A DNA stretch of 64,000 nucleotides from Saprospiraceae bacterium (GCA_026129545.1 JAHCHX010000001.1:3255001-3319000), one strand, 5' to 3'; counted from the first letter of the stretch, positions 3,240 through 28,305 are shown. A program made the numbers and translations. The notes: a model not told the origin generated them from the sequence alone.

Positions 3240-4433
3240 CTAATAATCCGAAGTGATCAACAAATCCAAGCTGGTGCTTTTCAGCGAAAATCGCTCTCCC
3301 AAATACACATTCGTCAGGCAGCCTTTGTAGGTATAGACCCCGTTGCGCAGCCCTTCGTGGCTTGTGATGAGGGGTAGTATGCCGCCAGCTTCTGCTTTTA
3401 AAAGCAGCGAGGTGAGGATGTTGCTAATGGCATCGGAAGCCGTGCCAGCTACACGAGATGGGATGTTGGGGACGCAATAATGGATGACCCCGTGTTTCAC
3501 AAAAGTGGGCTTGTCGTGGGTAGTAGCACGGGATGTCTCGAAACAGCCCCCTTGGTCAATGCTGACATCCACGATGACCGAGCCGGGTTTCATTCTTTGG
3601 ATGATGTCTTCGGAAACTACGATAGGTGAACTGGCTTGGGGTGAGTGGATGGCACCAATCGTCACGTCGGCGCTCAGGAGTTGCTTTTCCAAATGCCGCG
3701 GATTAACCACCGAAGTATGCAATTGACGACCGATTTGGTTTTGTAGGCGAGTCAGTTTATAGACATTATTATCAAAAATGCGCACCTCCGCGCCAAGTCC
3801 CAAGGCTGTGCGAGTGGCAAACTCCGCTACAACACCTGCGCCAAGAATGACCACTTTGGCAGGCGGCACCCCAGCGATTCCGCCCAACAACACCCCGGCC
3901 CCCCCTCGAGCGGTAGCCAGCAAATCGGCGGCAATGAGTATGGCACTTATCCCAGCGATTTCGCTCATCACATGGACGATGGGGAACACCCCCGTCTCGT
4001 CATCGCGGATATATTCCATAGCCAGCGCGATGACTCGTTTTTTTTGCAATTTCACAAGGTATTCAGATGTCATCAAGGGCAGATGAATCGGCGAAAAAAC
4101 CACCTGATTGGGACGCATTAGGTCTATTTCCTCCAAAGTGGGCGGCCCTACTTTCAACAGAACGTCGGCTTGAAACACCGTCTCACGGCTGCGCACAATT
4201 TCAGCTCCTGCTTCGGCATAGTCGAGGTCGCTGCATTTTGCCTTTTCTCCGGCACCAGCCTCTACCACGACGCGGTGGCCATGTGCGGTGAGCGTGGCGA
4301 CAGAGTGAGGCACGAGCGCCACGCGGTTCTCCTGCAAGGATGCCTCCTTCGGGATGCCAATGAAAAGGCGCTGGTGTTTGGGCAACACTTCCAGCGTTTC
4401 GGTTTGGGTGCGTGGTATCGAGAGTGTCTCCAT
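3240..4433 (-). CDS. ald: Alanine dehydrogenase
   Basis: Cytoplasmic NAD-dependent enzyme that interconverts L-alanine and pyruvate plus ammonium. The 397-residue product has the AlaDh/PNT N-terminal domain (GIPKEASLQENRVALVP) and a Rossmann domain with the dinucleotide motif GAGVVAEFATRTALGLGA. It also carries the conserved segment VDVSIDQGGCFETSR and the late VPNIPSRVAGTAS block that lines the active site. The length is slightly above the usual ~370 because of short extensions at both ends, a pattern I associate with Bacteroidota. The gene converges on the rRNA operon and stands alone. Transhydrogenase alpha subunit is the only close alternative; the intact single-chain AlaDh layout makes it unlikely. 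Confidence 0.93.
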   Translation of the reverse strand: METLSIPRTQTETLEVLPKHQRLFIGIPKEASLQENRVALVPHSVATLTAHGHRVVVEAGAGEKAKCSDLDYAEAGAEIVRSRETVFQADVLLKVGPPTLEEIDLMRPNQVVFSPIHLPLMTSEYLVKLQKKRVIALAMEYIRDDETGVFPIVHVMSEIAGISAILIAADLLATARGGAGVLLGGIAGVPPAKVVILGAGVVAEFATRTALGLGAEVRIFDNNVYKLTRLQNQIGRQLHTSVVNPRHLEKQLLSADVTIGAIHSPQASSPIVVSEDIIQRMKPGSVIVDVSIDQGGCFETSRATTHDKPTFVKHGVIHYCVPNIPSRVAGTASDAISNILTSLLLKAEAGGILPLITSHEGLRNGVYTYKGCLTNVYLGERFSLKSTSLDLLITSDY

Positions 4434-4615
4434 GAATCAATCAGTGGGTTAAGTCTGGGGGGCTATTTTTACGCGAATTGGGGATTGAGGTAATGTGTTG
4501 AAAATGTTTGCCATTCAGGCGGTGGTTTCAACTCACTGTCTGAATAAGCGATTGAATAGTGAATAGGCGATTGGTTATCAAACACCAAGAAAATTCAATT
4601 CCTAATTTGCACTTT

Positions 4616-5089
4616 TTACAAAATTAGCAAACGTCGAGATGTTTCGCCCGTTATTTCAATTTGAATTTTTGCGCCATCATCGGGGAAGAGCCGTTCTGCC
4701 AATTGCGGCCACTCGACGAGGCAATACCAAGGGTCATTTAGCAAATCCTCGATACCAATGTCCAAAGCTTCCTGAGGCGATTGTAGGCGATATAGGTCCA
4801 AATGATGGAACAGCGCCTTGGAACCGTCTTTTTCCGTATAGCTATATTCATTCACCAACGAAAAAGTTGGGCTGGCGGTTGTCTCACGCACGCCGAGGTG
4901 TCGACAAAACGCCTTGACAAAAGTTGTTTTGCCAGCTCCCATCTCTCCATACAGCGCGATTTTGCGCCTTCCGGCGAGCGCCTCTATCACATGAGGAATG
5001 GAAGCATCCAGTTCGGAAAGGGAATGTGCGATGATTTCCAAGAGATGATGAAAGTTGGTGGAGGTTTGTGTTTCCATGTTAGTTTGCAA
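4616..5089 (-). CDS. tsaE: tRNA threonylcarbamoyladenosine biosynthesis ATPase TsaE
   Basis: Small ATPase that works with TsaB and TsaD to install the t6A modification on tRNAs reading ANN codons. The 157-residue protein shows a Walker A motif GEMGAGKTTF (residues 48-57), the family block SPTFSLVNEY, and HHLDLYRL followed by the acidic Walker-B-like segment. WCLVEW-type sequence (WYCLVEWPQ) near residue 125 is also typical. The start at residue 1 or at Met5 cannot be separated. It is transcribed away from murF-alr across a 234-bp gap that contains a palindrome and a dispersed repeat. Confidence 0.93.
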   Translation of the reverse strand: MQTNMETQTSTNFHHLLEIIAHSLSELDASIPHVIEALAGRRKIALYGEMGAGKTTFVKAFCRHLGVRETTASPTFSLVNEYSYTEKDGSKALFHHLDLYRLQSPQEALDIGIEDLLNDPWYCLVEWPQLAERLFPDDGAKIQIEITGETSRRLLIL

Positions 5090-7984: not shown

Positions 7985-10081
7985 ATGCCTAAAACCACAC
8001 TAACGATGAGCAGTCTATCATTTAATGAGGTCATCCAGCGCGAAAAGGAACAGCTTCGCATTCGCCGCAAAAAATTGTCGCAAGAGCATGGCACCCCCGA
8101 ACAAGAGAATTGGTTTGGCATAGCCATGTCGGGGGGGGGCATTCGGTCAGCCACGATTAATCTTGGTTTTCTACAAACGCTCAACAAGTTTGGCATTCTG
8201 CAAAAAGCAGATTACCTCAGCACGGTGTCGGGTGGTGGATACACTCACTCTTATGTGCAGGCCACCGCAAAGGAAACGGGCGATTTGGGCCGACTATTCA
8301 CGCCTGAGCACATCGCCAACCTGCGCAAACACGGCGAATATCTCACGCCGGGTCAGGGCATCTGGAAAACTGGCAATACCTTTTTGTTGGCTGTTGCTTT
8401 TGTGGTCAGTTGGGTGATGAGTCTTATCAGCCCCATTATCGTGGCCGGAATACTCTACTATGTGTTGGAAATAATAGTAGGGCTGATAGGGGGGAACCCG
8501 CTGACAGCGACCTCACAATTGGCGCACAACATCGAATGGTGGGCGTTGGTGTTGGTGGGCGGTTTGATGCTGATTCACTTCATCGTGAATATCTTGCTGA
8601 ACTTCAATCTTGACGTTTCCAAGCATTTCAATCGGGCCGAGTCTGTCTTGGCGGTTGTCGGGTTGGTCCTTTATGGGTGGATTGTGCTGGCCGATATGAA
8701 AACGGGCCAGCACGAGGTTTCTCATTCGATGCTGACAGACTTCGCTATCAACGCCTTGTTGCTCTTTGTGCTTGGCTTTTTCACCAATCCCAATGCACTG
8801 AGTTTTCACCGCTTTTATCGGAAACAATTGGCCGATTTGTTCCTTCAATTTGCTGGCAATCACAAGAACATGGCCTTGAAAGATGTATTCAATGCCAACA
8901 CGGACAAAAAGACGGATTATTTGGCCCCCTACCCGCTCATCAACACTTGTTTGAACCTGCAAAATCCGGTTGGCGACGATAAATTCAAAGGGGCAAAAGC
9001 CAGCGACTATTTTCTGCTCAGCCCGTTCTATTGCGGCTCCAAACTTACTCGATATGTCCCTACCGACCGCTATGCCGACTATAAACAGATGACCCTTCCG
9101 GCTGCGGTCACTATTTCAGCGGCTGCGGTCAATCCGGGCTTGGGCATTTACTCCAGCAAGACGCTAAGCATCCTGATGACGCTTTTCAATGCGCGGCTCG
9201 GGTTTTGGATTTCCAACCCGTTGAAATTGGAAAAAACACGCGCCATCGTGTGGTGGCCTGTTTATTTTTTCAAGGAGTTGTTGGGGCGCATCGGTTTGGA
9301 CAACAAGAAGATAAACATCTCTGATGGGGGACACATCGAAAATCTGGGTGTGTATGAGCTCCTGCGGCGGGGATGCCGCCTAATTGTAGCCGTTGATGCG
9401 GGTGAGGACAAGAATTATACATTTTTTGACCTTAACAATCTTATTATTAGAGCACGCAACGAGTTGGGTCTCGAAATCAGATTTCGTGACGGCCAACATC
9501 CTGAGGACATTATTCGTCCGCGCCCCTCGCAGGTCTATTCTCAAAAACGATTTGCATTGGCCGACATTTATCAATGGTGGGAGGATGGGAAAGTGATTGA
9601 CACGGCCACTCAGCAAGAGGTGGAGCAAATCATCAATTTCGACAAGCCTCGCAAGGTGGGCACCTTAGTTTATGTGAAATCCGCCGTGCTGGCCCCCATG
9701 GGCAAGCCCTATCTTTCGGAAAAAGAGGACCCGCTCAAATACGGCACCTACAAGTATAAAATCTATCACCCGGACTTTCCGCACGAGTCCACGAGCGACC
9801 AGTTTTTTGACGAAATTCAGTGGGAGTCCTACTACCAATTGGGGCGCTACATCGGTGCCGACGTGTTGGGCGTGGAGGATTTGGAGCAATACGAAGAGGA
9901 AGGGGCATCTGCTCCACAAATATCGGTGGAGCAGATGCTGGCGTTGTTTGACGACGGCAAGGCAATCTTTGCTCCCCCACCAGCGACTCGTGCGCCCACC
10001 ACCTCGGCTGATGAGGAAGGCATCTTTGAAAGCATGAAAACGCCCGAACAGGTCAGCCGTGCCGTGCGGTATCGGATGTGA
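7985..10081 (+). CDS. Membrane-embedded patatin-like phospholipase/acylhydrolase
   Basis: A 698-residue protein with the patatin/cPLA2 catalytic parts: the oxyanion block MSGGGIRSA (residues 48-56), the nucleophile Ser82 in STVSGGGY, and the catalytic Asp447 in SDGGHIENLG. Between Ser and Asp lie four or five hydrophobic segments (about 125-165, 186-208, 222-240, 252-268), so the catalytic fold is interrupted by a membrane domain. There is no signal peptide. Substrate is unknown; a membrane lipid is the natural guess. The last ~50 residues are low-complexity. Initiation could also be at Met8. It stands alone and is followed by a perfect 21-bp-stem palindrome. Confidence 0.82.
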   Translation: MPKTTLTMSSLSFNEVIQREKEQLRIRRKKLSQEHGTPEQENWFGIAMSGGGIRSATINLGFLQTLNKFGILQKADYLSTVSGGGYTHSYVQATAKETGDLGRLFTPEHIANLRKHGEYLTPGQGIWKTGNTFLLAVAFVVSWVMSLISPIIVAGILYYVLEIIVGLIGGNPLTATSQLAHNIEWWALVLVGGLMLIHFIVNILLNFNLDVSKHFNRAESVLAVVGLVLYGWIVLADMKTGQHEVSHSMLTDFAINALLLFVLGFFTNPNALSFHRFYRKQLADLFLQFAGNHKNMALKDVFNANTDKKTDYLAPYPLINTCLNLQNPVGDDKFKGAKASDYFLLSPFYCGSKLTRYVPTDRYADYKQMTLPAAVTISAAAVNPGLGIYSSKTLSILMTLFNARLGFWISNPLKLEKTRAIVWWPVYFFKELLGRIGLDNKKINISDGGHIENLGVYELLRRGCRLIVAVDAGEDKNYTFFDLNNLIIRARNELGLEIRFRDGQHPEDIIRPRPSQVYSQKRFALADIYQWWEDGKVIDTATQQEVEQIINFDKPRKVGTLVYVKSAVLAPMGKPYLSEKEDPLKYGTYKYKIYHPDFPHESTSDQFFDEIQWESYYQLGRYIGADVLGVEDLEQYEEEGASAPQISVEQMLALFDDGKAIFAPPPATRAPTTSADEEGIFESMKTPEQVSRAVRYRM

Positions 10082-10106
10082 TTATTATTCAGGGGATGTC
10101 GCTGAC

Positions 10107-10173
10107 AGGATTGACAAGATTTGTAGGTTCTTTCATAAATAAATGCGAAAACCCTACAAATCTTGTCAATCCT
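10107..10173. repeat. Long perfect intergenic palindrome (21-bp stem)
   Basis: Positions 10107-10127 and 10153-10173 are perfect reverse complements, with a 25-nt loop. The arm contains the GGATTGACAAGATT type of sequence. It lies between convergent genes (the patatin ending at 10081 and the M43 protease ending at 10245) and could stop transcription from either side, although no T run follows. The stem is longer than a terminator needs, which suggests a small palindromic mobile repeat. Confidence 0.85.
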
Positions 10174-10197
10174 ATAACGAATATCACATGTAAGGGG

Positions 10198-10226
10198 GCC
10201 TCAATAGCACAAGTTTCCAGCATCTT
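10198..10226 (+). repeat. Dispersed intergenic repeat, copy 2
   Basis: Matches 5178-5206 at 24 of 29 positions (shared GCCTCAATAGCA start and CAGCAT core). It lies just beyond the 21-bp-stem palindrome and ends about 19 nt from the stop codon of the M43 protease gene. Confidence 0.6.
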
Positions 10227-10244
10227 AATCGCAGATTCGGATAC

Positions 10245-11573
10245 TCAACGCACCAGCAATTTTTGAAGAGCCGAGCCTTGCTCGGTGCGCATTTCCACAA
10301 AATAAACGCCTGGCGTAAGCAAGTGTGTTTCTAATATCCTTTGGTGCATTCCTGCGGGGTAGGGTTCGGATTCGAGCAAGCCGATTGGCTGACCCGCCGC
10401 GTTGAAGAGGCGTATCGTCACGTTTGTTTTTTCCTGCAAATTAAATCGCACGGCGACTTGGTCAGAGGCCGGGTTGGGCGATATGCGAAAATCAATGGCT
10501 TGTGACACAGGGGATTGAGTATTTACCATAGGACTGAGCAAGCCGGCACGAGGGCCGAGCAACACGTTGCGCATGATGTCAACTTGGCCTTGTGTGAACA
10601 TATTCATGCAATCCTCGCTGGCATAGTCCATATAGTTTTCCACCAAATCGGGCATATCGGCATTGTAGAAAGAGTCAATTTTGGTGCAGGTGTTCTTGTT
10701 CTTGTTACAATCGAAAGGGGACTGGGCATTGGCGAATGGTGTGTCGTCCACGCCGTCGCTTTGGTTGCAATTGTTGGGCAACCCTAACAAGCCACCATCG
10801 CCCCAAATGTGGCGCAATCCCATGTAGTGCCCCATTTCATGCACGGGCGTGCGGCCTTTCACGATGAGGTTGCCCGTGCCACCGGGGACGGGGACGGTGT
10901 GGGGGTTGTTGCTGCCAAACACCCGATAGTCAATAACCACCCCGTCTTGTTGGGGCATTGGTGCGCCGCTGTTGGCTGGCCAATGGCCGAGGTTGTTGGG
11001 TGGGAAGGCGAAACCGAGGATTTGACCGAGCACCACGCCGCCGAATGTGATAGGTTGTATTTTGCAAATCCAAATGTTGACGTATTGCTCTGTGTCCCAA
11101 GCGTCGCTACCGCCTTGGCTGGAGCTTTTCAATTCGGCCAAAAGGTTGTTGCCCGTAAGCGCGACCGTAAATTCCTTGCTGGTTTGCACCCTCACTACAT
11201 CCACCAAATTAAAGTGAATGTCGGCATTGGCCGCCACATGCTTGAAAATGGAGCGCAGGTTGGCGGTGTCCGCGTTCATGCGGTTGTAATCAGCGTTTAG
11301 CACGGCCATTTGGTCGAGGATGATGCTGTCATGGAGGTTCTCTTCGGGGTTTTTCCAAACGACGTGGACAACCACGTTCACAGTGAGCGGGCTTCTGTCG
11401 GTAGCGCGTGGCGCTTTGGCCTGCTCAAAGGTGGTGTTGAATGCGTCATGCAGAGCAGGGTAGTGTTCTTGCACGATGTGTGAGAAAACCTCGTTGCCGC
11501 AAATAATGGGCGCTTGCGCGGCGGCGGCGGTGCCAAGCAGCAGAAAGAACAGCGTGGAAAGATTGTTCCTCAT
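10245..11573 (-). CDS. Secreted M43-family metalloprotease with T9SS sorting domain
   Basis: Extracellular zinc endopeptidase of the pappalysin/cytophagalysin family. The zinc motif is HEMGHYMGLRHIWG (HExxHxxGxxH, about residue 240), followed by the usual Cys-rich loop and the Met-turn region (ENYMDYASEDC). The chosen start (Met at 11573) gives a clean signal peptide, MRNNLSTLFFLLL... ending at AAAAQA; the longer reading adds 20 implausible residues. The C-terminal ~75 residues (FRISPNPASDQVAV... to GVYFVEMRTEQGSALQKLLVR) are a type A T9SS sorting domain. Expected to be exported by Sec, moved out by T9SS and anchored or released at the surface, where it degrades protein. Confidence 0.92.
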   Translation of the reverse strand: MRNNLSTLFFLLLGTAAAAQAPIICGNEVFSHIVQEHYPALHDAFNTTFEQAKAPRATDRSPLTVNVVVHVVWKNPEENLHDSIILDQMAVLNADYNRMNADTANLRSIFKHVAANADIHFNLVDVVRVQTSKEFTVALTGNNLLAELKSSSQGGSDAWDTEQYVNIWICKIQPITFGGVVLGQILGFAFPPNNLGHWPANSGAPMPQQDGVVIDYRVFGSNNPHTVPVPGGTGNLIVKGRTPVHEMGHYMGLRHIWGDGGLLGLPNNCNQSDGVDDTPFANAQSPFDCNKNKNTCTKIDSFYNADMPDLVENYMDYASEDCMNMFTQGQVDIMRNVLLGPRAGLLSPMVNTQSPVSQAIDFRISPNPASDQVAVRFNLQEKTNVTIRLFNAAGQPIGLLESEPYPAGMHQRILETHLLTPGVYFVEMRTEQGSALQKLLVR

Positions 11574-17879: not shown

Positions 17880-19325
17880 CTAATCAAGCGTTTCCTCTTC
17901 GCCCAGCTTGGGTATGCCGACATTTTTGAAACCATTTTCGAGCAGATGGTCGCGCCATTTTTCCTGACGGTCGAGGGTGCCGTGCACAAGCCAGATTTTT
18001 CGACACGACGGGATTTGATTCTTTAAGAAATCGAGCATTTCCACGCGGTCTCCGTGCGCGGAGAAAGAATCCATGATTTCTACATCGGCCAACACTTGCT
18101 TGAATTTGCCCATGACGTGTAGGTGTTTTGCGCCGGCGCGCAGTTGGCCTCCCGGGGTGTTGGGGCTACAATAACCGACGATTAGAAAGGTGTTGCGATG
18201 ATTCTCGATGTTTTGTGCCAAATGGTGTCGGATTCGCCCTGCGTTCATCATGCCTGATGCCGAGATGATGATGCATGGTTTGTTGATTTGGTTTAGTTGC
18301 TTGGAACCTTCCGAGCTTCTTATGTAGTACAAATCGTTGAAGCCAAAAGGATTTTCGTTTTCGGTCATGTAGCGAATCACCTCGTCATCAAAGCACTCTG
18401 GGTGGTTCACAAACACTTGTGTGGCATTGACGGCCAAAGGGCTATCCACAAAGACCGGGACTTTTGGTAGTTGCCCGTTGTGATGAAGTTTGTCGAGCAT
18501 ATACACGATTTCCTGTGTGCGCCCAACCGAAAAGGCCGGGATGATGAGCTTGCCTTTTTTCTCGACACAGGTATGGTGCACGATTTTCAAAAAATGCTCG
18601 ATTTCGTTCGGGCCGGATTCATGTTCGCGGTCGCCATAAGTGCTTTCACAAATGATGTAGTCAACCTCTGGCATCGGGAGCGGGTCGCCGAGAATGGGGC
18701 GGTCTGGTCGGCCAATGTCGCCTGTAAATCCTATGCGAATGGTTTGGCCATTTTCCTTTATCTCTAGCGTGACGCTTGCGCTGCCCAAAATGTGGCCTGC
18801 GTCGCGGTACAGCACGCGCACGTTTGGGTGAATGTGGAACCATTGTTCGTAGTTGAAGCTGGCAAACTGGCGCATCGCTCTTGCCACGTCTCCCGTAGTG
18901 TAGAGCGGCTCCACATCCTTTTCATTCAACGCTTTATGGCGGTTGTGGTAGTCAGCGTCGCCCTCCTGTATTTTGGCGCTATCAAGCAACATTAGGGCGC
19001 ACAAATCGCGCGTAGCATGGGTGCTGTATATCTTCCCTCGGAAACCGTCGGCTACCAATTTTGGCACTCGACCCGTGTGGTCAATGTGGGCATGGCTGAG
19101 CACGAGGCAATCAATTTCTCGTGGGTCAAACAACCATTTTTCGTTGAAGCGGGCGTAGGAGCGTTCATCCGAATTTCGATTTTGCTCATCGGTGGGCGAT
19201 GCTTCGTCAACATCTCCGCCTTGGTAAAGACCACAATCCAGTAAAATTTTGAAATGGTCATCCAGCTCAATCAAATGCGCCGACCCTGTGACTTCACGAG
19301 CGGCTCCGCAGAATTTTATCTTCAT
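17880..19325 (-). CDS. Beta-CASP metallo-beta-lactamase-fold RNase
   Basis: A 481-residue MBL-fold protein with RNA-specificity domain, of the CPSF/YsH1-like family that cleaves or trims RNA. The metal motif is SHAHIDHTG (His78, His80, Asp82, His83). Further metal ligands are in the DAGHILGSAS block, and the beta-CASP and C-terminal KH-side blocks GRTQEIVYML, ASGMMNAGRIRHHL and DSFSAHGDR are present. The start at 19325 gives MKIKFCGAAREVTGSAHL, the standard family N-terminus; the longer ORF adds 51 residues without support. It converges with the HhH gene across a 32-bp gap. Precise RNA targets cannot be read from sequence. Confidence 0.92.
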   Translation of the reverse strand: MKIKFCGAAREVTGSAHLIELDDHFKILLDCGLYQGGDVDEASPTDEQNRNSDERSYARFNEKWLFDPREIDCLVLSHAHIDHTGRVPKLVADGFRGKIYSTHATRDLCALMLLDSAKIQEGDADYHNRHKALNEKDVEPLYTTGDVARAMRQFASFNYEQWFHIHPNVRVLYRDAGHILGSASVTLEIKENGQTIRIGFTGDIGRPDRPILGDPLPMPEVDYIICESTYGDREHESGPNEIEHFLKIVHHTCVEKKGKLIIPAFSVGRTQEIVYMLDKLHHNGQLPKVPVFVDSPLAVNATQVFVNHPECFDDEVIRYMTENENPFGFNDLYYIRSSEGSKQLNQINKPCIIISASGMMNAGRIRHHLAQNIENHRNTFLIVGYCSPNTPGGQLRAGAKHLHVMGKFKQVLADVEIMDSFSAHGDRVEMLDFLKNQIPSCRKIWLVHGTLDRQEKWRDHLLENGFKNVGIPKLGEEETLD

Positions 19326-19533
19326 GGGACGATGGGTGATTGCGGCAAACGATTGACAAAATCGTCGCCTTGTTTTAGCGGGAAAAGTAGGGTAATTGCG
19401 GCGGAATTGAGGCGTTGTTGGTTCAGAAAATGTCGCCTTTGCCTTCATAAATGCAAACGGCCCCAAAATGAGCGGCACCGACGCGCGTTTTCAAGGTTCG
19501 ACTGCTCGCCGCAGGTGCTATTGGCAGCTATTT

Positions 19534-21420
19534 TCAAAATCGCCAGCGCAACCCCGCTGACCAGCCCAGCCAAGCCCCCAACCACCCATCACCCGCGTCG
19601 GCAGGGAGTAAGTTGTTTTTTACGACCCTCGAGCGAAGGGCGACACTTGACAAATCGGTTGGGTCGCTGATGAAAAAATTGAATGTAGGGCCTACGGCGA
19701 TATGTAGTCCTCCAACGAGGTGCAGATTGACGGCTGGTGCTATTTGCACCCATTCTTGGACGGCGTTTGCATGGCTGCCATGGCTGACGTGGCGATTTGT
19801 CAAATCAAAAGTCAGTCCGCACCAACTATTAAAACGAGTACTGGACCCGAACCCAACACCATAGCCCCAAAGCAAGTCGCTGGGTTCGGATTCGGCTTGT
19901 TCGGCTCCTGCGGTCAAGGTGACATAGAATGTGGGCACTCCCGATTTGAAAGACAGATTTGCCCACATCACGTCGTTGGCATTTGCCTCCAACGCGATAT
20001 AGCCGCCTCGTTTTGAGATATTTAGCAAGCCAAGTTGGAGGCCCTTGTTTTCTTTGGCGATATTGATGACTCCTATTTGAGCACCCTCCAAGTGTCTGGC
20101 GTAATTGAACAAGCCACTGATTTGTGTTCCGTGAAGGCTATCGGCTACGTTGCTCAACCCCGCTACTTGTACCCGTATTTTTCCACGCCCGGCACTGTTG
20201 GTCAACCCCGCGAATTGTGCCGCAGCATCAGCAGAGGCAGCGTGATTGCCTATCCCGGACGCTTGTACCCCATGCAGGAGCGTTTTTGCGCTGTTCCAGA
20301 TTCCGGCGGCTTGCAGGGCCGTCATCGTGTCGGTTTGGTTGGCAATCCCGGCGGCCTGCACGGCAAAGCGGCCATGCGGCACGATATTCAATATCCCAGC
20401 TGCCTGCACACCCTCTCCATAATGAGCCACATTGAGTATGCCGCTCATTTGTGCGCCTTGCAAGGTGTCGCCCACATAGTTGTAGATACCAGCCGCTTGC
20501 ACGCCGCTCGCGTTGCCGCGCAAGTTGTTGAACAAGCCCGCTCCTTGAAAGCCCGTCATGTTTTCGCGGGTGATATTGCCCAAACCAGCAATTTCAGCTT
20601 TGCGGTTGCCACGCGAATAACCCGCCAAAATGTTGACGGACCAATCATTCACGACACTCCCACTCAATCGGTGGTTGGTTCCGATGCCGGGGAGAAACGA
20701 CAATTGAAACCGGCGGTGCAACGAATCTTCTACATTGAGGGCAGCCAGCTTTTGGGATGTTTTTACAAAAAAGTTTTCGAGCGAGAGCGACGCGCGGTTG
20801 AGCTGCTGGCGGAGCGACGGGCGGGAGGCGAGTGATGGCGTGTCGGGCTGCAATTCGATTTTGACAAATCGGGGTGTCATGGAAGTGATTTGCAGCACCG
20901 TGTCGCGGTAGTCGAGGCGCGACACCACGATTTCAGCACGCGTCGACACAGGCAGTTCGTAGAAACCATCTACATTGGTGGTGGCGGAGCGCAGGGTTTG
21001 GCGGTCATAGACTGTCACATTCGAGATTTTTTGGCCTGTGCGAGGGTCAGAAATGTATCCGCTCAGTTTTTGTTGCGGTTTTTTGTTTTTCTTCAAAATA
21101 AGATACTCGCCGCTTTGCTTGAACGTGTAATCATCACCAAGCAACAGAAGGAGGGTTTCACGAACGGAGCGGGTGCCGGGAGGAAGGCTTACGCGCTGCT
21201 CGGTATCAATGATGCGGGTATTGTACGACCATTCAAACCCGCCAAGGCGAGCTACTTCGTCGAGCGCGGTTTTTAGTGGGGTTTCGGAGAATGCGACATG
21301 GATGCGTTTTTCCAACACGTCATTGGCAAAAAGGGTGTTGGGGAATAGAAAGGGGAAAAAAATAAGAAAGACAAGCCCGATGAGGCGTGCGTTATTTTCA
21401 AAGCTCATAGTCTTGTTCAT
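19534..21420 (-). CDS. STN-domain protein with carboxypeptidase-regulatory-like domain and GxQxxGxxN-type repeats
   Basis: About 628 residues from Met at 21420, which gives a signal peptide (LIGLVFLIFFPFLFPNTLFA). An STN domain follows (RIHVAFSETPLKTALDEVARLGGF..., about 40-105). Next comes a CarboxypepD_reg-like beta-sandwich (LSGYISDPRTGQKISNVTVYDRQ...). The middle holds ten or more ~20-residue repeats of the type GVQAAGIxNxA/GAQMSGILNVA (about 300-480). The C-terminal end has alternating, barrel-like strands ending in GLRWRF, as in outer-membrane proteins. No TonB plug is seen. It follows FecR and the sigma factor on the same strand, so it is probably their third partner. Function unknown. 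Confidence 0.78.
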   Translation of the reverse strand: MNKTMSFENNARLIGLVFLIFFPFLFPNTLFANDVLEKRIHVAFSETPLKTALDEVARLGGFEWSYNTRIIDTEQRVSLPPGTRSVRETLLLLLGDDYTFKQSGEYLILKKNKKPQQKLSGYISDPRTGQKISNVTVYDRQTLRSATTNVDGFYELPVSTRAEIVVSRLDYRDTVLQITSMTPRFVKIELQPDTPSLASRPSLRQQLNRASLSLENFFVKTSQKLAALNVEDSLHRRFQLSFLPGIGTNHRLSGSVVNDWSVNILAGYSRGNRKAEIAGLGNITRENMTGFQGAGLFNNLRGNASGVQAAGIYNYVGDTLQGAQMSGILNVAHYGEGVQAAGILNIVPHGRFAVQAAGIANQTDTMTALQAAGIWNSAKTLLHGVQASGIGNHAASADAAAQFAGLTNSAGRGKIRVQVAGLSNVADSLHGTQISGLFNYARHLEGAQIGVINIAKENKGLQLGLLNISKRGGYIALEANANDVMWANLSFKSGVPTFYVTLTAGAEQAESEPSDLLWGYGVGFGSSTRFNSWCGLTFDLTNRHVSHGSHANAVQEWVQIAPAVNLHLVGGLHIAVGPTFNFFISDPTDLSSVALRSRVVKNNLLPADAGDGWLGAWLGWSAGLRWRF

Positions 21421-21584
21421 TTTTGCACGTTGTGGGGCATCTATACTCCGCACGGTTAATTTTTGAGCATGGATAAAGGCGCGCAATCTGTTCAAAATCA
21501 AGGAGAGCACTCATGGCGAACTGACAAATCCTAGCGAATCGAGATATAAAAAATCTGGAAGAGGCCAAGGCTCATGGGGCGGCA

Positions 21585-22577
21585 TCATTCATCACAGCCT
21601 GCACCGTCGAGGATATACGCTCCATTATCCACCTTAATTAGTCGTAACGAAAAAGATTCGGCAATGAGGTCCAAGACACGTTCTGGAGGTAGATCGTTGT
21701 AGCGGGCGGTAAGGATGCAATGTTCCAGATTTTTGTTTTTCAATGTTATTTTTATGTCATAGAGTATTTCAACTTGTCTTACGACATCTCTAAGCGATGT
21801 TGCATCGAACTGTAACATTCGGTTTTCCATAAGGGGATTTTGTGAGGCGTTCAGTCGTGAGAGAATATCACGCTGTTTATCATAAACTGCCGATTCGCCA
21901 GCCTGCAAAAGCAGCGATTGCTCGCGCGTGCTGACTCGAACTTTTCCTTCGGCGACGGCGACAATGACTTGTCCCGGATTGCTTGCCTCATCCACCCTGA
22001 AAGCCGTTCCGACCACTCGTACCTCCAATGTTTGTATCTCCACAACGAAGGGCCGAGTTGTGTCGGATTTTACCTCAAAATATGCCTCGCCGTGCATTCG
22101 CAACCTGCGTTCACGAGTGTTAAAGCCTTTGATAACGGTCAATCCCGACTGTGGGGCAAGCGTGATGACGGAGCCATCGGAAAGTGTTTCAATCAGGTGT
22201 GCATCAGTGGCAGCTATGACAGTTGCGGGGGCTGAGGGGTTGCGCAGCCACAAAAAATAAACAGCGGTGAGCAACAGCGCCACAGCCGCGGCAGCTCTCC
22301 ACCAATAACCCAACCGAATGGGGCTGACGCGAAAATGCCCACCTGCGCCCATGCGAGTCTTCACTTTTCGCAACGCCGCTTCCGTATTCACAGGGCGCGA
22401 CGCGGTTGGTTTTGCGGACATTGATCGTTGCCAGATTGCCTGCAAATCAGCAAAATAACGTTGGTTTTGGGGCGACTGTGCCACCCAAGCTTGCAGCTCG
22501 ACATCCTCATCGGAAGCGGTTTCCCCGGCCAAGTGGCGGGCGATGAGCGCATCAATATATTCGTCGAAGTTTTCCAT
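21585..22577 (-). CDS. FecR-family anti-sigma factor
   Basis: Inner-membrane anti-sigma/sigma-regulator that passes a signal from the outer membrane to its ECF sigma factor. The 330-residue protein has an N-terminal cytoplasmic region, one membrane helix (about 92-110, AAAAVALLLTAVYFLWL), a periplasmic FecR domain (LSDGSVITLAPQSGLTV... GEAYFEVKSDTTRPFVVEI... VVGTAFRV) and the C-terminal DUF4974 domain typical of Bacteroidota (FDATSLRDVVRQVEILYDIKITL). It is 74 bp downstream of the sigma gene and upstream of the STN protein gene; all three are co-oriented. Confidence 0.93.
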   Translation of the reverse strand: MENFDEYIDALIARHLAGETASDEDVELQAWVAQSPQNQRYFADLQAIWQRSMSAKPTASRPVNTEAALRKVKTRMGAGGHFRVSPIRLGYWWRAAAAVALLLTAVYFLWLRNPSAPATVIAATDAHLIETLSDGSVITLAPQSGLTVIKGFNTRERRLRMHGEAYFEVKSDTTRPFVVEIQTLEVRVVGTAFRVDEASNPGQVIVAVAEGKVRVSTREQSLLLQAGESAVYDKQRDILSRLNASQNPLMENRMLQFDATSLRDVVRQVEILYDIKITLKNKNLEHCILTARYNDLPPERVLDLIAESFSLRLIKVDNGAYILDGAGCDE

Positions 22578-22651
22578 AGACTACATCTTGGTTCGGTTCG
22601 GTTTGGTCGGAACAAGTGCTGTTGAGTGCATCGTTTCTGAAAAAGCGTTGG

Positions 22652-23317
22652 TCAAATGAATGCCCCCACCACACACCAAAAGCCAAACAACGTGACAAGA
22701 TAATCGGCCAATTGGAGGCGAAGGATGCGCAGGGCTTTTCCCATTTGGGTTTCCACTGTCTTGATTGAAATGCCGAGATGGTCGGCTATTTCACGGTATT
22801 TCAACTCTTCAAACCGGCTCAACTCAAATATGTGGCGGCATTGTGGCGGCAACAGGTCAAGCGCCTTTTGGAGGTGCTCGCCCAATTCGGATGCGTGGTC
22901 GTCGGGCAAAGCTTGCTTGTTGTCCAATTGTGCGGCGTTGAAGTCCAGATATTTGGAACGGGTCTGGCTGGCGCGAATCCTATTGAGGGCTGCATTGTGC
23001 ACGGTCTTGTATAGGTAAGCTTTGAGCGACCACTCGATGGCAAGACGCTCACGCTGTTCCCAAATTTTCACAAAAACCTGCTGCACAATATCTTCCGCTT
23101 CATCAATATCGCTGTCTGTCATCCGACAGGCATATTGACAAAGCGGCTCGTACCAACGCCTGAAAACGGCATCAAATGCCGATTCGTCGCCATTCCGAAG
23201 GGCTGCTATTTGGGTCTGAGTGTTTGGTTGTTCCAAAATTTTACGGGTTTTGAACACCCTATGACACACAAGGTGTGACGACACCCTGATGCGGGCAGGT
23301 TTAAAAAAAATTTTCAT
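22652..23317 (-). CDS. ECF RNA polymerase sigma-70 factor (FecI-like)
   Basis: Sigma factor of the Bacteroidota FecI-like group. Region 2 reads FDAVFRRWYEPLCQYACRMT...AEDIVQQVFVKIWEQR and region 4 LPPQCRHIFELSRFEELKYREIADHLGISIKTVETQMGKAL. The reading from the first ATG has a basic 28-residue lead. A TTG at about 23236 would begin at EQPNTQTQIAALRNGDESAF and match the usual family N-terminus better, so the true start may be there. With FecR it forms a cell-surface signalling pair; candidate targets are its own operon and the divergent TonB receptor. Confidence 0.92.
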   Translation of the reverse strand: MKIFFKPARIRVSSHLVCHRVFKTRKILEQPNTQTQIAALRNGDESAFDAVFRRWYEPLCQYACRMTDSDIDEAEDIVQQVFVKIWEQRERLAIEWSLKAYLYKTVHNAALNRIRASQTRSKYLDFNAAQLDNKQALPDDHASELGEHLQKALDLLPPQCRHIFELSRFEELKYREIADHLGISIKTVETQMGKALRILRLQLADYLVTLFGFWCVVGAFI

Positions 23318-23397
23318 CGCACATCAGGGTAAAGTTTCCGGCTGTGTGTCTCAGGGCAAATTTTCCAAATCATTTTACGGGTGAGACGGAAATTGAA

Positions 23398-23454: not shown

Positions 23455-25809
23455 ATGCACAAAAACATTTTTTTCTCCGCCTTTCTCTTGTTCTTGACAG
23501 CTGCAGCCAACGCACAAACGTACACCCAAACCCTCAAAGGCACGGTGCTCGACAAGGCTGTGAAGACTCCCCTGATTGGGGCTACGGTCGCTTTGCTCAG
23601 CACTGACCCCCAACGCGGTGCCGTGACCGATTTGGATGGGCGATTCCGCATGACAGATGTGCCGGTGGGCAAGCAGACTTTGCGAGTGACCTACCTCGGC
23701 TACAAAGAATTTGTGACTGCCAACGTGACCGTAAACTCTGGCAAAGAAACCGAACTCGTCATTGAAATGGAAGAAGATTTCATGCAATCGAAAGAGGTGG
23801 TCATCACGGCGGGCATTGAGAAGCAAAAACCGCTCAACGAACTCTCGACGGTAAGTGCCCGCACCTTCTCGGTAGAGGAGACGCAGCGATTCGCCGCCGC
23901 CGTGAACGACCCAGCCCGTATGGCCTCGTCGTTCGCGGGGGTGGCGATGCCTGCCGATGGCAACAACTATATCTCGATTCGCGGCAACTCGCCCAACGGT
24001 CTGCTCTGGCGCATGGAGGGTGTGGACATCCCCAACCCCAACCACTTTTCCTCGGTGGGCACGTCAGGCGGCGGCATTTCTATTTTGAGCGCCCAATTGC
24101 TGACCAACTCCGACTTTATGACTGGGGCGTTCGCCGCGGAATACGGTAATGCGCTCTCGGGCGTATTTGATTTGAAACTTCGCAAGGGCAATTCCGAACG
24201 CCGCGAATTCACGTTGCAAGCGGGCGTGTTGGGTCTTGATGCCGCTACCGAAGGGCCGTTCCGTGTGGGCAAGCAAACAGGCTCATATCTCATCAATTAT
24301 CGCTATTCCACGCTTTCCGTCCTGTCGAAAATGGGGGTCAATATCGGCGACGCTGTCACCAATTTTCAGGATTTGTCTTTCAACGTGTGGCTGCCAGCGG
24401 GGAAAGCGGGCGTGTTCACCTTGTTCGGGATGGGAGGCTTGAGCGACCAAACTCAACGGGGCAAGGCCGATTCTTTGCTTTGGGAAGAGGATGATTTCAA
24501 GCGATACGATTATGATTTTGTGGCGAATACGGGCGTGGCGGGTCTTACGCACAGCCTGATTTTGAACGATAAGACATATTTGAAAACAGTCGTGACTGCT
24601 TCTGGCACACGAAATGGCGAGCGCACCGATAAACTGCTCGACGACTACTCGATGCGCCGTCAGTTCGACAATGAACATATTCAGACAAAAATTACCGCGT
24701 CGTCCACGCTCAGCCATAAATTCAATGCTCGGCATTTTCTGCGGGCGGGTGGCTATGTCAATTTCCTAAACTTCAATTTCAGCCAACACGAATTTATTGA
24801 GGAAAACAATCGCTTGGAAGAGCAGATAAAGGATTCGGGCAGTGGCACTACCCTCAACACCTTTGCGCAATGGCAATTCCGCGCCACCGAGCGCCTCACG
24901 CTGAACGCGGGGCTGCACGGGCTGTTTTTTCTCCTGAACAACACCGCCTCGGTGGAACCGCGCGCGTCAGTGAAATACGCATTTTCGGATGCGCAGTCGC
25001 TTAGTCTCGGCTATGGGCTGCACTCGCAAATTCAACCTTTGGGGGTTTATTTTGCCAAAATAACAGGGGACGATGGTTCATTCACCACCCCCAACCGTGA
25101 CCTTGGCCTGACGAAAGCGCACCATTTTGTGCTGTCGTTCGACCAGTCGCTATCTGGCAATTGGCATATAAAACCCGAAATCTACTATCAATCGCTGACC
25201 AACGTGCCGGTAAATGGGGCAGTACCCGATGCCTTTTCGATGCTCAACCTGACACAAGGGTTCGTCAACGAAAGCTTGGTGAACGATGGGCTGGGGCGCA
25301 ACTACGGCCTCGAATTGACGGTGGAAAAATTCCTGACGCGAGGTTTTTACTTCTTGCTGGCTTCTTCTTTGTTCCAATCGGAATATCGAGGCAGCGACGG
25401 GGTGTGGCACAACACGCGTTTCAACTCTAACTATGTGAACACGCTCACGGCAGGCAAGGAATGGGAATGGAAAAAGAACCGCACTTTCGGCGTGAACCTT
25501 AAATTGACGACCCTTGGAGGCCTGCGCGAAACACCGATTGACTTGGCCGCATCCCGTGAAAAAGGCGAGACGGTGCGCGACGATAGCCGCGCTTTTGAAG
25601 AACGAATGCCCGCTTATTTCCGACTGGACACGGGGGTGCGGCTCAAGCGCAACTATCGTGCACTCACCACCACCTTGAGTCTCGACCTGCAAAACACGAC
25701 CAATCGGCAAAACGTGTTCGGGCGCTACTACAATGAAAAGAAAGGCACCATCGAATACTATTATCAGACTCCGTTGATTCCTGTATTGAGTTACAAGCTG
25801 GAGTTTTGA
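23455..25809 (+). CDS. TonB-dependent outer-membrane receptor
   Basis: Outer-membrane transporter of 784 residues. A signal peptide (MHKNIFFSAFLLFLTAAANA) is followed by a carboxypeptidase-regulatory-like domain (LKGTVLDKAVKTPLIGATVALL...GRFRMTDVPVGKQTLRVTYLGYK), a plug domain (IRGNSPNGLLWRMEGVDIPNPNHF...GNALSGVFDLKLRKG) and a 22-strand-type barrel ending in PLIPVLSYKLEF with a terminal Phe. It lacks the length (~1000) and the SusD partner of SusC proteins. Substrate cannot be read. It is divergent from the FecI/FecR/STN genes with 137 bp between, which makes it a plausible member of that regulon, although it lacks an N-terminal STN signalling domain. Confidence 0.92.
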   Translation: MHKNIFFSAFLLFLTAAANAQTYTQTLKGTVLDKAVKTPLIGATVALLSTDPQRGAVTDLDGRFRMTDVPVGKQTLRVTYLGYKEFVTANVTVNSGKETELVIEMEEDFMQSKEVVITAGIEKQKPLNELSTVSARTFSVEETQRFAAAVNDPARMASSFAGVAMPADGNNYISIRGNSPNGLLWRMEGVDIPNPNHFSSVGTSGGGISILSAQLLTNSDFMTGAFAAEYGNALSGVFDLKLRKGNSERREFTLQAGVLGLDAATEGPFRVGKQTGSYLINYRYSTLSVLSKMGVNIGDAVTNFQDLSFNVWLPAGKAGVFTLFGMGGLSDQTQRGKADSLLWEEDDFKRYDYDFVANTGVAGLTHSLILNDKTYLKTVVTASGTRNGERTDKLLDDYSMRRQFDNEHIQTKITASSTLSHKFNARHFLRAGGYVNFLNFNFSQHEFIEENNRLEEQIKDSGSGTTLNTFAQWQFRATERLTLNAGLHGLFFLLNNTASVEPRASVKYAFSDAQSLSLGYGLHSQIQPLGVYFAKITGDDGSFTTPNRDLGLTKAHHFVLSFDQSLSGNWHIKPEIYYQSLTNVPVNGAVPDAFSMLNLTQGFVNESLVNDGLGRNYGLELTVEKFLTRGFYFLLASSLFQSEYRGSDGVWHNTRFNSNYVNTLTAGKEWEWKKNRTFGVNLKLTTLGGLRETPIDLAASREKGETVRDDSRAFEERMPAYFRLDTGVRLKRNYRALTTTLSLDLQNTTNRQNVFGRYYNEKKGTIEYYYQTPLIPVLSYKLEF

Positions 25810-25988: not shown

Positions 25989-28259
25989 TTAGCGCACTAG
26001 CTCGAACTCGGCCTCTTTCACATCGCGCGAGCTGCCCCCTACGAACACCTTGAACTTGCCGGGGTCGGCCTTGAATTTTAATTCGTGATTCCAGTAACCC
26101 AAGTCTTGTTCCGTGAGTCGGAAAGTAACCGTTTTGCTTTCGTAGGTGTCGAGTTTTATTTTTTCAAAACCTTTCAATTCTTTCACTGGCCGAGCAATGT
26201 CGGCAACAGGGTCGTGGATGTATAGCTGAACCACCTCCTCCCCGGCGTGTTGTCCCGTGTTGCTCACGGTGACGGAGACTTCAAGGGTCTCGCCAGTTCT
26301 TAATTTGGTTTTGTTGAGTTTTATGTCCGAATAAGAGAACGTGGTGTAGCTCAGTCCAAAACCAAACGGGTAGGCGGGTGAGGTGGGCGAATCAAGATAG
26401 CCGCTTGTCCACATTTGCCCTTGTTGCTGCTGCGGTCGGCCCGTGTTGAGGGTGTTGTAATAGATGGGCACTTGCCCGACGGAGCGCGGGAAAGTGACAG
26501 GCAATTTGCCGGAAGGATTCACCGCCCCGGTGATGATGTCTGCCAAGGCGTTGCCCGTTTCAAAGCCGGGCTGCCAGCACACGAGAATGGCCGGGATATT
26601 TTCCGAGGCCCATTGGAAGGTCATTGGGCGGCTGTTGAACAGCGCCATCACGGTGGGCATATTGCCGCGAGCGGCTATTTTCATGATGATTTCTTGGTTG
26701 TATTTCAGATTGAGGTCGGTCACGGAGCGACTTTCTCCACAATCAATACCCGTCTCGCCCACACAAACAATGGTCAGGTCTGCTGCCGCTGTTGCTTTCA
26801 AAGCCGCCGAAAAGTCTCTTTCGGTGCAGTCAGCATTGAAACAAATTTCGGTAATAGTGACCTCAAAGCCTGCTTCTTCCAAAGAGGACTTCAATGCCAT
26901 GCCGGGCGTGACTACTTTGGTGGTATCGTATTGGCTGACATCTCCGAGACCGAGCGTCCAGAAGCTCATATAGTTCTTGTTGGCGCGACTATCGGCCAAT
27001 GGGCCAATGATGGCGATTTTTTTGAATGGCCCATCGGGGCGGAGGGGTAGCAGACCGCCTTCGTTTTTAAGCAGCACCATGCTCTTGGCCGCCAATTCGC
27101 GTGCAGCAAGCCGATATTCGGGCTTTTCAAGCGTAGCAGCGCGACGTTTAGGGTCGAGGTAGCGGAATGGGTCGTCGAAGAGGCCCAACGAGAATTTCAG
27201 GCGCAACACGCGACGCACGGCCTCGTCTATTTGGGCTTGCGTGACTCGCCCGCTCTCCAATGCTTTTTTCAAGCCTTTTTGGAAGGTGCCGCCAGCCATG
27301 TCCATGTCGCTGCCTGCCGAAAGGCATTTGGCGGAAGCGTCGGCCTCATCGGCAGCAGCACCGTGGATGATGGTCTCGCCGAACGAATTCCAATCGCTCA
27401 CCACCATTCCTTTCCAGCCCCACTCGCCGCGCAGAATATCGGTGAGCAAGTGTTTGTCCATGCTGGCAGGTACGCCGTTGAGCACGTTAAACGCATTCAT
27501 AAAAGTGGCACAGCCTGCGTCGGCGGCGGCTTTGAATGGGGGCAACACGATTTCGCGGAGGCGTTGTTCGCTCATATCCACCGTGTTGTAGTCGCGTCCT
27601 GCCTCGGCGAATCCGTATCCGGCAAAGTGTTTGACGCAAGCGGCAAGGGTGTTGTTTTTGCTCAAATCGTCGCCTTGAAAACCCCTCACGCGAGCCACAG
27701 CCACGCGACTTGCGAGATAGGTATCTTCTCCCGAGCCTTCCATGACGCGGCCCCAGCGCGGGTCGCGCGATACATCCACCATAGGCGAAAACGTCCAGTT
27801 TTGCCCATCGGCGCTGGCTTCTTCGGCAGCGATTCGCTCGGCGCGTTCGATGGCACCCATATCCCAACTTGCTGCTTGTGCCAATGGGATGGGAAAGATG
27901 GTTTTGTAGCCATGTATCACGTCGAAACCGAAAATGAGCGGTATGCCGAGGCGGGTGCCGACCGCGGCGCGTTGCATGGCGATTTTGTTGTCAAAATTGG
28001 TGTGGCTCAATATGCTGCCAACCTTGCCAGCCTTGATTTGGGTTAGCAAATCGTCTTTAGCGACATCGGTGCCAGTACTGATGTCGCCGGGAACTTGGTG
28101 AAGTTGCCCGATTTTTTCGTCAAGAGTCATTTTGGCAAGTAGTGCCTCGACTCGGGCATCAATGTCCTTTACGGAGGTCTTTTGCGAAAACAGCGGGGAA
28201 GAAATTCCTATCGCGACAAGGGCGATGACAGGCAAAAGATATGGCTGAAATTTTATCAT
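25989..28259 (-). CDS. bglX: Periplasmic beta-glucosidase, GH3 family (BglX-like)
   Basis: Exo-acting beta-glucosidase of 756 residues. The start at 28259 places a signal peptide (MIKFQPYLLPVIALVAIGISSPLFSQ) at the front. The GH3 N-domain has the substrate block KHFAGYGFAEAGRDYNTVDMSE and the nucleophile Asp289 in VVSDWNSFGE. The C-domain has GPLADSRANKNYMSFW and CVGETGIDCGESRSVTDL. A fibronectin-III-like domain closes the protein (GETLEVSVTVSNTGQHAGEEVVQLYIHD). This matches E. coli BglX in layout and length. Beta-glucosidase or related beta-glycosidase activity is likely; the exact sugar is not certain. Confidence 0.92.
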   Translation of the reverse strand: MIKFQPYLLPVIALVAIGISSPLFSQKTSVKDIDARVEALLAKMTLDEKIGQLHQVPGDISTGTDVAKDDLLTQIKAGKVGSILSHTNFDNKIAMQRAAVGTRLGIPLIFGFDVIHGYKTIFPIPLAQAASWDMGAIERAERIAAEEASADGQNWTFSPMVDVSRDPRWGRVMEGSGEDTYLASRVAVARVRGFQGDDLSKNNTLAACVKHFAGYGFAEAGRDYNTVDMSEQRLREIVLPPFKAAADAGCATFMNAFNVLNGVPASMDKHLLTDILRGEWGWKGMVVSDWNSFGETIIHGAAADEADASAKCLSAGSDMDMAGGTFQKGLKKALESGRVTQAQIDEAVRRVLRLKFSLGLFDDPFRYLDPKRRAATLEKPEYRLAARELAAKSMVLLKNEGGLLPLRPDGPFKKIAIIGPLADSRANKNYMSFWTLGLGDVSQYDTTKVVTPGMALKSSLEEAGFEVTITEICFNADCTERDFSAALKATAAADLTIVCVGETGIDCGESRSVTDLNLKYNQEIIMKIAARGNMPTVMALFNSRPMTFQWASENIPAILVCWQPGFETGNALADIITGAVNPSGKLPVTFPRSVGQVPIYYNTLNTGRPQQQQGQMWTSGYLDSPTSPAYPFGFGLSYTTFSYSDIKLNKTKLRTGETLEVSVTVSNTGQHAGEEVVQLYIHDPVADIARPVKELKGFEKIKLDTYESKTVTFRLTEQDLGYWNHELKFKADPGKFKVFVGGSSRDVKEAEFELVR

Positions 28260-28277
28260 GGATAATTGTTTTGCGGG

Positions 28278-28305
28278 CAAATGTAAGAAACCAATCTGCT
28301 AACAA
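28278..28305 (-). promoter_or_regulatory. Bacteroidota-type promoter of the GH3 gene
   Basis: On the minus strand TTG (28305-28303), a 17-nt spacer and TACATTTG (28285-28278) match the TTG / TAnnTTTG consensus. It lies about 20 nt before the chosen start codon. Confidence 0.6.

Follow-up and report, generated by a model that had tools for sequence, protein, structure and literature searches.

Which outer-membrane protein speaks to a FecI/FecR switch when the receptor encoded beside it has no STN domain? In the usual FecI/FecR scheme, a single outer-membrane protein both transports and signals, and the two roles are hard to separate. A locus of Saprospiraceae bacterium, contained in a 64,000-nucleotide stretch of DNA (GCA_026129545.1 JAHCHX010000001.1:3255001-3319000; hereafter the window), is arranged differently. 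Specifically, the minus strand carries fecI, then fecR, then a third gene, and a gene for a TonB-dependent receptor (TBDR) runs divergently from fecI. The original prediction assigned the STN domain to the third protein and proposed that sensing and transport might be split between that protein and the receptor. Our analysis indicates that the outer-membrane sensor of the switch, here and in many relatives, seems to be a separate, plug-less protein and not the receptor. The genes of the locus are:

22652..23236, minus strand: FecI-type extracytoplasmic function (ECF) sigma factor, 194 aa from TTG, in an open frame reaching ATG 23317 (Pfam Sigma70_r2/r4_2; TIGR02985)
21585..22577, minus strand: FecR-type anti-sigma factor with an STN-like FecR_C periplasmic end (PF04773, 4e-16; PF16344, 6e-9)
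19534..21420, minus strand: candidate plug-less transducer, 628 aa from ATG 21420, in the order STN, carboxypeptidase-regulatory-like domain (CPD), linker, repeat region, barrel-like end
23455..25809, plus strand: TBDR without STN, in the order CPD, Ton-box-like EVVITAG, plug, barrel (PF13715, 4e-18; Plug, 1.3e-4; family alignment A4)

We consider it probable that the locus is a variant of FecI/FecR cell-surface signaling with a non-receptor transducer, in which FecI transcribes its own operon and the STN-less TBDR. The basis for this reading is the protein architecture, its conservation, gene linkage, and a shared promoter-like element. In known cell-surface signaling systems, the receptor STN domain binds the FecR C-terminus, and in FoxA/FoxR, STN protects FecR from proteolysis until the signal arrives (PMC11637429). 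By analogy to those systems, STN-FecR contact, FecR proteolysis, and binding of the sigma factor to the element would also occur here. FecR, at its periplasmic end, would be contacted by an STN domain carried on a plug-less outer-membrane protein consisting of STN, a CPD or loose linker, a solenoid, and an eight-strand barrel. When some ligand or state is sensed at the outer membrane, the STN-FecR contact would change, FecR would be processed, and FecI would be released. FecI would then transcribe from a bipartite promoter located before its own operon and before the STN-less TBDR gene; in relatives, its targets would also include stand-alone repeat proteins and some DUF2807 proteins. The TBDR may take no part in sensing and simply be a gene that FecI switches on.

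The third protein

The domains of the third protein are:

21088..21306, minus strand: STN-like signaling domain, residues 39-111 (AlphaFold2 [AF2] secondary structure; PF07660 in homologues; weak PDB profile matches)
20851..21069, minus strand: CPD, residues 118-190 (PF13715, 6.9e-8; Foldseek 5aq0, 9hfj)
20005..20715, minus strand: repeat region of LA_2272-type 15-16-residue repeats, predicted to be solenoid-like (NF047436, 2.9e-10; homologue repeat spacing; AF2)
19537..20001, minus strand: eight-strand barrel-like C-terminus with an aromatic last residue, residues 474-628 (AF2; Foldseek Ail, NspA, OmpX, OmpA, E 1e-3 to 5e-2)

The N-terminus resembles a signal peptide. Pfam does not recognize an STN domain in the window copy itself. 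Among 38 aligned homologues, 30 match PF07660 (STN) and 28 match the STN-like FecR_C; the family profile weakly matches PilQ, the PupA signaling domain, and a putative anti-sigma factor in the PDB; and AF2 models residues 39-111 as beta-alpha-beta/beta-alpha-beta-beta. From these homologue matches, PDB profile matches, and the modeled fold, the presence of an STN-like domain is well supported. The CPD scores above the Pfam cut-off, and its fold is like those of 5aq0 and the SusC NTE 9hfj. It is followed by a loose linker (AF2 pLDDT <50 at residues 194-232).

The repeat region matches the NCBIfam model for LA_2272 surface repeats at 39.8 bits, against a curated cut-off of 25. Direct reading with the pattern Q-x4/5-N gives 12 repeats in the window copy, and the 38 homologues hold 322, mostly spaced 15 or 16 residues apart, with a consensus of approximately GDVxGVQVAGLFNVAG. 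The AF2 model of residues 236-628 (pLDDT 91.8, pTM 0.80) renders most 16-residue coils as a 7-residue plus a 4-residue strand, followed by eight long strands at 474-628. We read the modeled repeat region as a solenoid. We also considered that the repeats form one large up-down barrel; this is less likely, as the repeats are mostly 7- plus 4-residue strands, not a single membrane strand, and Foldseek did not settle the matter. For the barrel-like end, Foldseek gives moderate PDB matches, the leaders nearly all being outer-membrane barrels and the best being the eight-strand Ail, NspA, and OmpX.

Pfam and NCBIfam return no plug in the third protein at E<1, and the AF2 model holds no plug-like domain, which rules out a TonB plug hidden within the repeats. 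Ton box sequence is likewise absent. Because it has neither plug nor Ton box, the third protein is unlikely to be a TonB-dependent transporter: in place of the plug, Ton box, and barrel of a receptor, this STN-bearing partner has the eight-strand end. AF2, Pfam, and NCBIfam agree with the architecture originally read from the DNA, namely an STN domain, a CPD, at least ten repeats, and a barrel-like end with no plug, and structure prediction, proposed at the time as one of the checks, yields solenoid-like coils and eight strands with no unrecognized plug. The reading of the divergent receptor at 23455 as STN-less was also borne out. Pfam finds no STN domain in it; it carries a CPD, the EVVITAG motif, and a Plug match that is weak and just under the cut-off. 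We found no description of a plug-less STN protein in a FecI/FecR system in the open-access literature.

As for the switch itself, a FecI-type ECF sigma gene lies beside the fecR gene, and the 330-aa FecR has an STN-like periplasmic C-terminal domain (PF16344, 6.2e-9).

Conservation of the STN-repeat module

Homologues came from searches covering 199 genomes in the family and 395 in the phylum. The 59 listed STN-repeat loci comprise the window, the near-identical L031, and 57 loci from other genomes. The only close relative found in GTDB is a Saprospiraceae metagenome-assembled genome, whose protein is 97% identical and in which the gene order is kept; it was the sole locus matched in a contig scan with the third protein as the single query. 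The module is common in Saprospiraceae and also exists in other families of the class.

By open frames, FecR neighbors the STN-repeat gene in 55 of the 59 loci. When the 57 loci outside the window and L031 were searched again in six frames, three remained without FecR: L061 and L063, which lie at contig edges, and L110, a true orphan. FecR is thus adjacent in 54 of 55 homologous loci with readable flanks, spread over several families of the class. The original prediction had named STN proteins lacking FecI/FecR as evidence that would count against it, and L110 is the only such case among the readable loci. Conservation of the four-gene arrangement, also proposed as a check, is seen for the FecR link and is partial for the receptor, which is nearby in only 24 of the 59 loci.

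What, then, accompanies the module? Proteins with DUF2807 (head GIN) are the commonest companion (37 loci, e.g., L062, L053, and L107), followed by a 200-aa OMP_b-brl barrel protein (26), the STN-less TBDR (24), and a stand-alone repeat protein (6). Thus, the idea of a split between two proteins of one system is not supported as stated. What remains of it is a plug-less STN protein tied to FecR, receptor relatives that are fused to STN, and a shared promoter-like element.

In other classes of the phylum, repeat-family proteins have no STN domain and are not beside FecI/FecR. Such STN-less proteins in one other class (L118, L119, and similar loci) adjoin genes for a PagL-like lipid A deacylase and a prolyl isomerase.

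These neighbors bear on one form that non-receptor transduction could take. The STN repeat-barrel protein might report on the state of the outer membrane or surface, with the TBDR as one of several outputs and not a participant in sensing. We hold this only tentatively, at somewhat less than even odds. The frequency of DUF2807 surface proteins, one of which weakly matches LiaG, speaks for it, as do the PagL-like and prolyl isomerase neighbors of the STN-less repeat proteins, and the Dma proteins discussed below provide a precedent for barrel-to-sigma signaling. The difficulty is that, where a TBDR is present, its linkage to the module through a common promoter is strong.

Promoter-like elements

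Looking for paired 5-mers in the sequences that precede module genes, we found TAGGG-N16-TTGTC before both fecI and the TBDR gene. Aligned sites in relatives give a bipartite ATAGGGGTAA-N~12-TTGTCATA. We scored the motif as present above 14, leaving each locus out of its own scoring; the top shuffled score was 13.7. Outside the window's family, the motif precedes 16 of 24 fecI genes, 12 of 16 TBDR genes, and all six stand-alone repeat genes, versus 2 of 455 other genes of those loci. In 14 loci, the sigma operon and the TBDR gene each have a copy. In L113, the motif is also found at a DUF6134 gene upstream of fecI (4369-5034) and at a 326-aa epimerase-like gene (9469-10449), both possible further sigma targets judging by the motif.

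The window holds two copies of a related element:

23263..23290, minus strand: promoter-like element ATCAGGGT-N12-TGTGTGTC facing fecI, one of two exact matches in the genome
23323..23350, plus strand: promoter-like element ATCAGGGT-N12-TGTGTGTC facing the TBDR gene, p ~0.006 versus shuffles

In the 137-base gap, the site facing the TBDR was scored with the motif from other genomes, allowing the spacer to vary by one base; the second site, facing fecI, is weaker and falls within an over-long annotated start. Beyond these two divergent copies, the 5.86-Mb genome contains no exact match; the next-best matches have two mismatches, and a reversed-pattern control gave no matches. As the pair itself was used to define the exact pattern, uniqueness alone is no test; the likeness of the pair to the independently learned motif, its orientation, and its place are. 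On these sequence grounds, the window TBDR is a likely target of the sigma factor. Immediately after the TBDR-facing site (window 23350-23380) is a second CAGGGCAAATTTTCC stretch, like the first half of that site (CAGGGTAAAGTTTCC).

The fecI-facing site also affects the gene model. FecI is annotated at 22652-23317 (minus strand). Because the family profile begins only at residue 28 of this long frame and the promoter-like site lies inside the extra N-terminus, the annotated start appears too far upstream. Translation probably begins at TTG 23236, giving 194 aa, the usual FecI length in the family, and the element ends ~24 bases before that codon.

Other searches were less informative. Genome-wide, the relatives' consensus at up to three mismatches was not selective, the control exceeding the matches. 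AGGGTAA with a spacer of 10-13 had no match in the window, the elements there having a longer spacer. When motifs were sought de novo in 40 Saprospiraceae loci, the output was mostly coding sequence from the ends of upstream genes; hence, within the window's family, the promoter argument depends on the two window sites plus a small number of loci.

Could the receptor be an ordinary neighbor with no tie to the sigma system, and could the two inverted sites serve as an operator for another regulator? In favor of this, the two window genes are divergent, the pair can be read as a dyad, and the exact pattern derives from the pair itself. We nonetheless regard this as improbable: the motif had already been derived from other genomes when the window was scored, sites elsewhere face genes singly, including genes in line, and form no dyad, and L215 repeats the divergent layout with the motif at both ends.

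The receptor and its relatives

TBDR family A4 has several members per genome, five of them in this one. In a 149-genome sample of the class, the best TBDR scorers go with the repeat family in 13 of 15 genomes versus 24 of 134 others, and the association persists without the genomes used to build the profile (10 of 12, p=7e-6). Since the profile was built from module receptors, ranking alone would be biased, and the TBDR tree gives a fairer test. On that tree, module membership clusters, with 12 changes versus 25 when shuffled (none of 500 shuffles was as low), and module TBDRs do not form one clade; for some tree rows labeled as outside the module, only 1.5-kb flanks or contig ends are visible.

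At two places on the tree, STN-fused TBDRs stand beside module TBDRs: L190, with FecR upstream, and L204/L205 and L206, with no FecR in view. The coexistence of fused and separate forms in one receptor family is a Rosetta-stone type of argument that STN and receptor belong together. The TBDRs of L154 (genome G113) and L188/L218 (genome G627) lie on another contig than their genome's STN-repeat module, yet carry the motif, which suggests regulation in trans.

The fused relatives raise a stronger form of the non-receptor transducer reading, compatible with it: the STN-less TBDR would bind and import a substrate and, through contact within the outer membrane, convey its loaded state to the STN protein; what is elsewhere one protein would here be divided into a transducer and a transporter. 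We rate such true split sensing as possible and rather doubtful. Close TBDRs do exist as STN fusions, one of them beside FecR; the promoter element is shared; the families co-occur across genomes; and in some genomes the close TBDR is on another contig, with the motif in L154. Against this, most loci have no neighboring TBDR, which is matched or exceeded in frequency by the DUF2807 and 200-aa barrel proteins, and FecR is visible near just one of the four fused TBDRs. Counting genes tips the balance slightly toward sensing of envelope state; the fused relatives tip it toward split sensing.

Whichever form it takes, several observations weigh against a plug-less FecR transducer that controls the receptor. 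One readable locus, L110, is an orphan. fecI is recognizable near most loci, and ~12 loci have FecR alone, in some cases where a contig ends. In over half of the 59 loci, no TBDR is nearby. The motif is scarce in the window's own family (fecI 1 of 26, TBDR 3 of 15), and the window element departs from the relatives' consensus, reading CAGGG with a spacing one base longer. Finally, in a mirror-tree analysis, the correlation between STN and FecR_C distances exceeds that of the controls (partial r 0.16-0.20) but is no more specific than that of STN with other parts of FecR.

Comparison with known systems

The genome has only two FecR genes. The second belongs to L144 (G000:C1:1897500-1914000), a canonical system comprising fecI, fecR, an 884-aa STN-CPD-plug-barrel receptor (its STN called by family profile), and DUF4249. 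L144 is of the same sigma/anti-sigma type as the window locus, and a copy of the relatives' promoter motif precedes its fecR; unlike the window locus, it has a fused transducer. A two-mismatch copy of the motif also lies before a CRP-like gene divergent to the L144 fecI.

FecIRA, FoxIRA, and PupIRB share with the window locus a FecI-type ECF sigma factor, a FecR with an STN-like C-terminal domain, an STN-bearing outer-membrane partner, and an autoregulated operon, the last implied here by the promoter-like element. They differ in that STN is part of a TonB-dependent transducer; here it is on a non-receptor protein, and the TBDR is separate. STN-containing SusC-type receptors of Bacteroides, which belong to ECF-controlled polysaccharide loci (PMC7782687), are likewise from Bacteroidota and combine CPD/NTE and STN with an ECF sigma/anti-sigma pair. 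In those receptors, STN and plug-barrel are one protein, whereas here STN is on the plug-less repeat protein.

The nearest precedent for receptor-free barrel-to-sigma signaling is Dma of Bacteroides, in which anti-sigma factor and barrel form one protein running from the cytoplasm to the outer membrane, paired with ECF21 sigma factors (PMC13088901). Dma, too, links a non-receptor outer-membrane beta-barrel to an ECF sigma factor in Bacteroidota. It has neither STN nor FecR; here, FecR and the STN-barrel protein are separate genes. The LA_2272 surface repeat and VC2662 families (NF047436, NF047437) share the repeat type, and their models include no STN or sigma link; the literature searched gave no role for these repeats.

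The module is flanked by genes that, from reading the sequence, encode a GH3-like glycosidase (25989-28280) and an MBL-fold RNA-processing-type hydrolase (17880-19478). Both are also present in L031.

Implications

We lean, by a little, toward the existence of a widespread Bacteroidota signaling class in which a plug-less solenoid/barrel transducer would act independently of TonB and the receptor, if present, would be separate, serving as reporter or output. A plug-less STN protein lets one ask whether FecR signaling needs TonB energy or substrate transport. The LA_2272-type repeat region, known as a surface repeat, would gain a place in a signaling pathway. Finally, the common promoter element offers a means to list regulons in organisms that mostly lack genetics.

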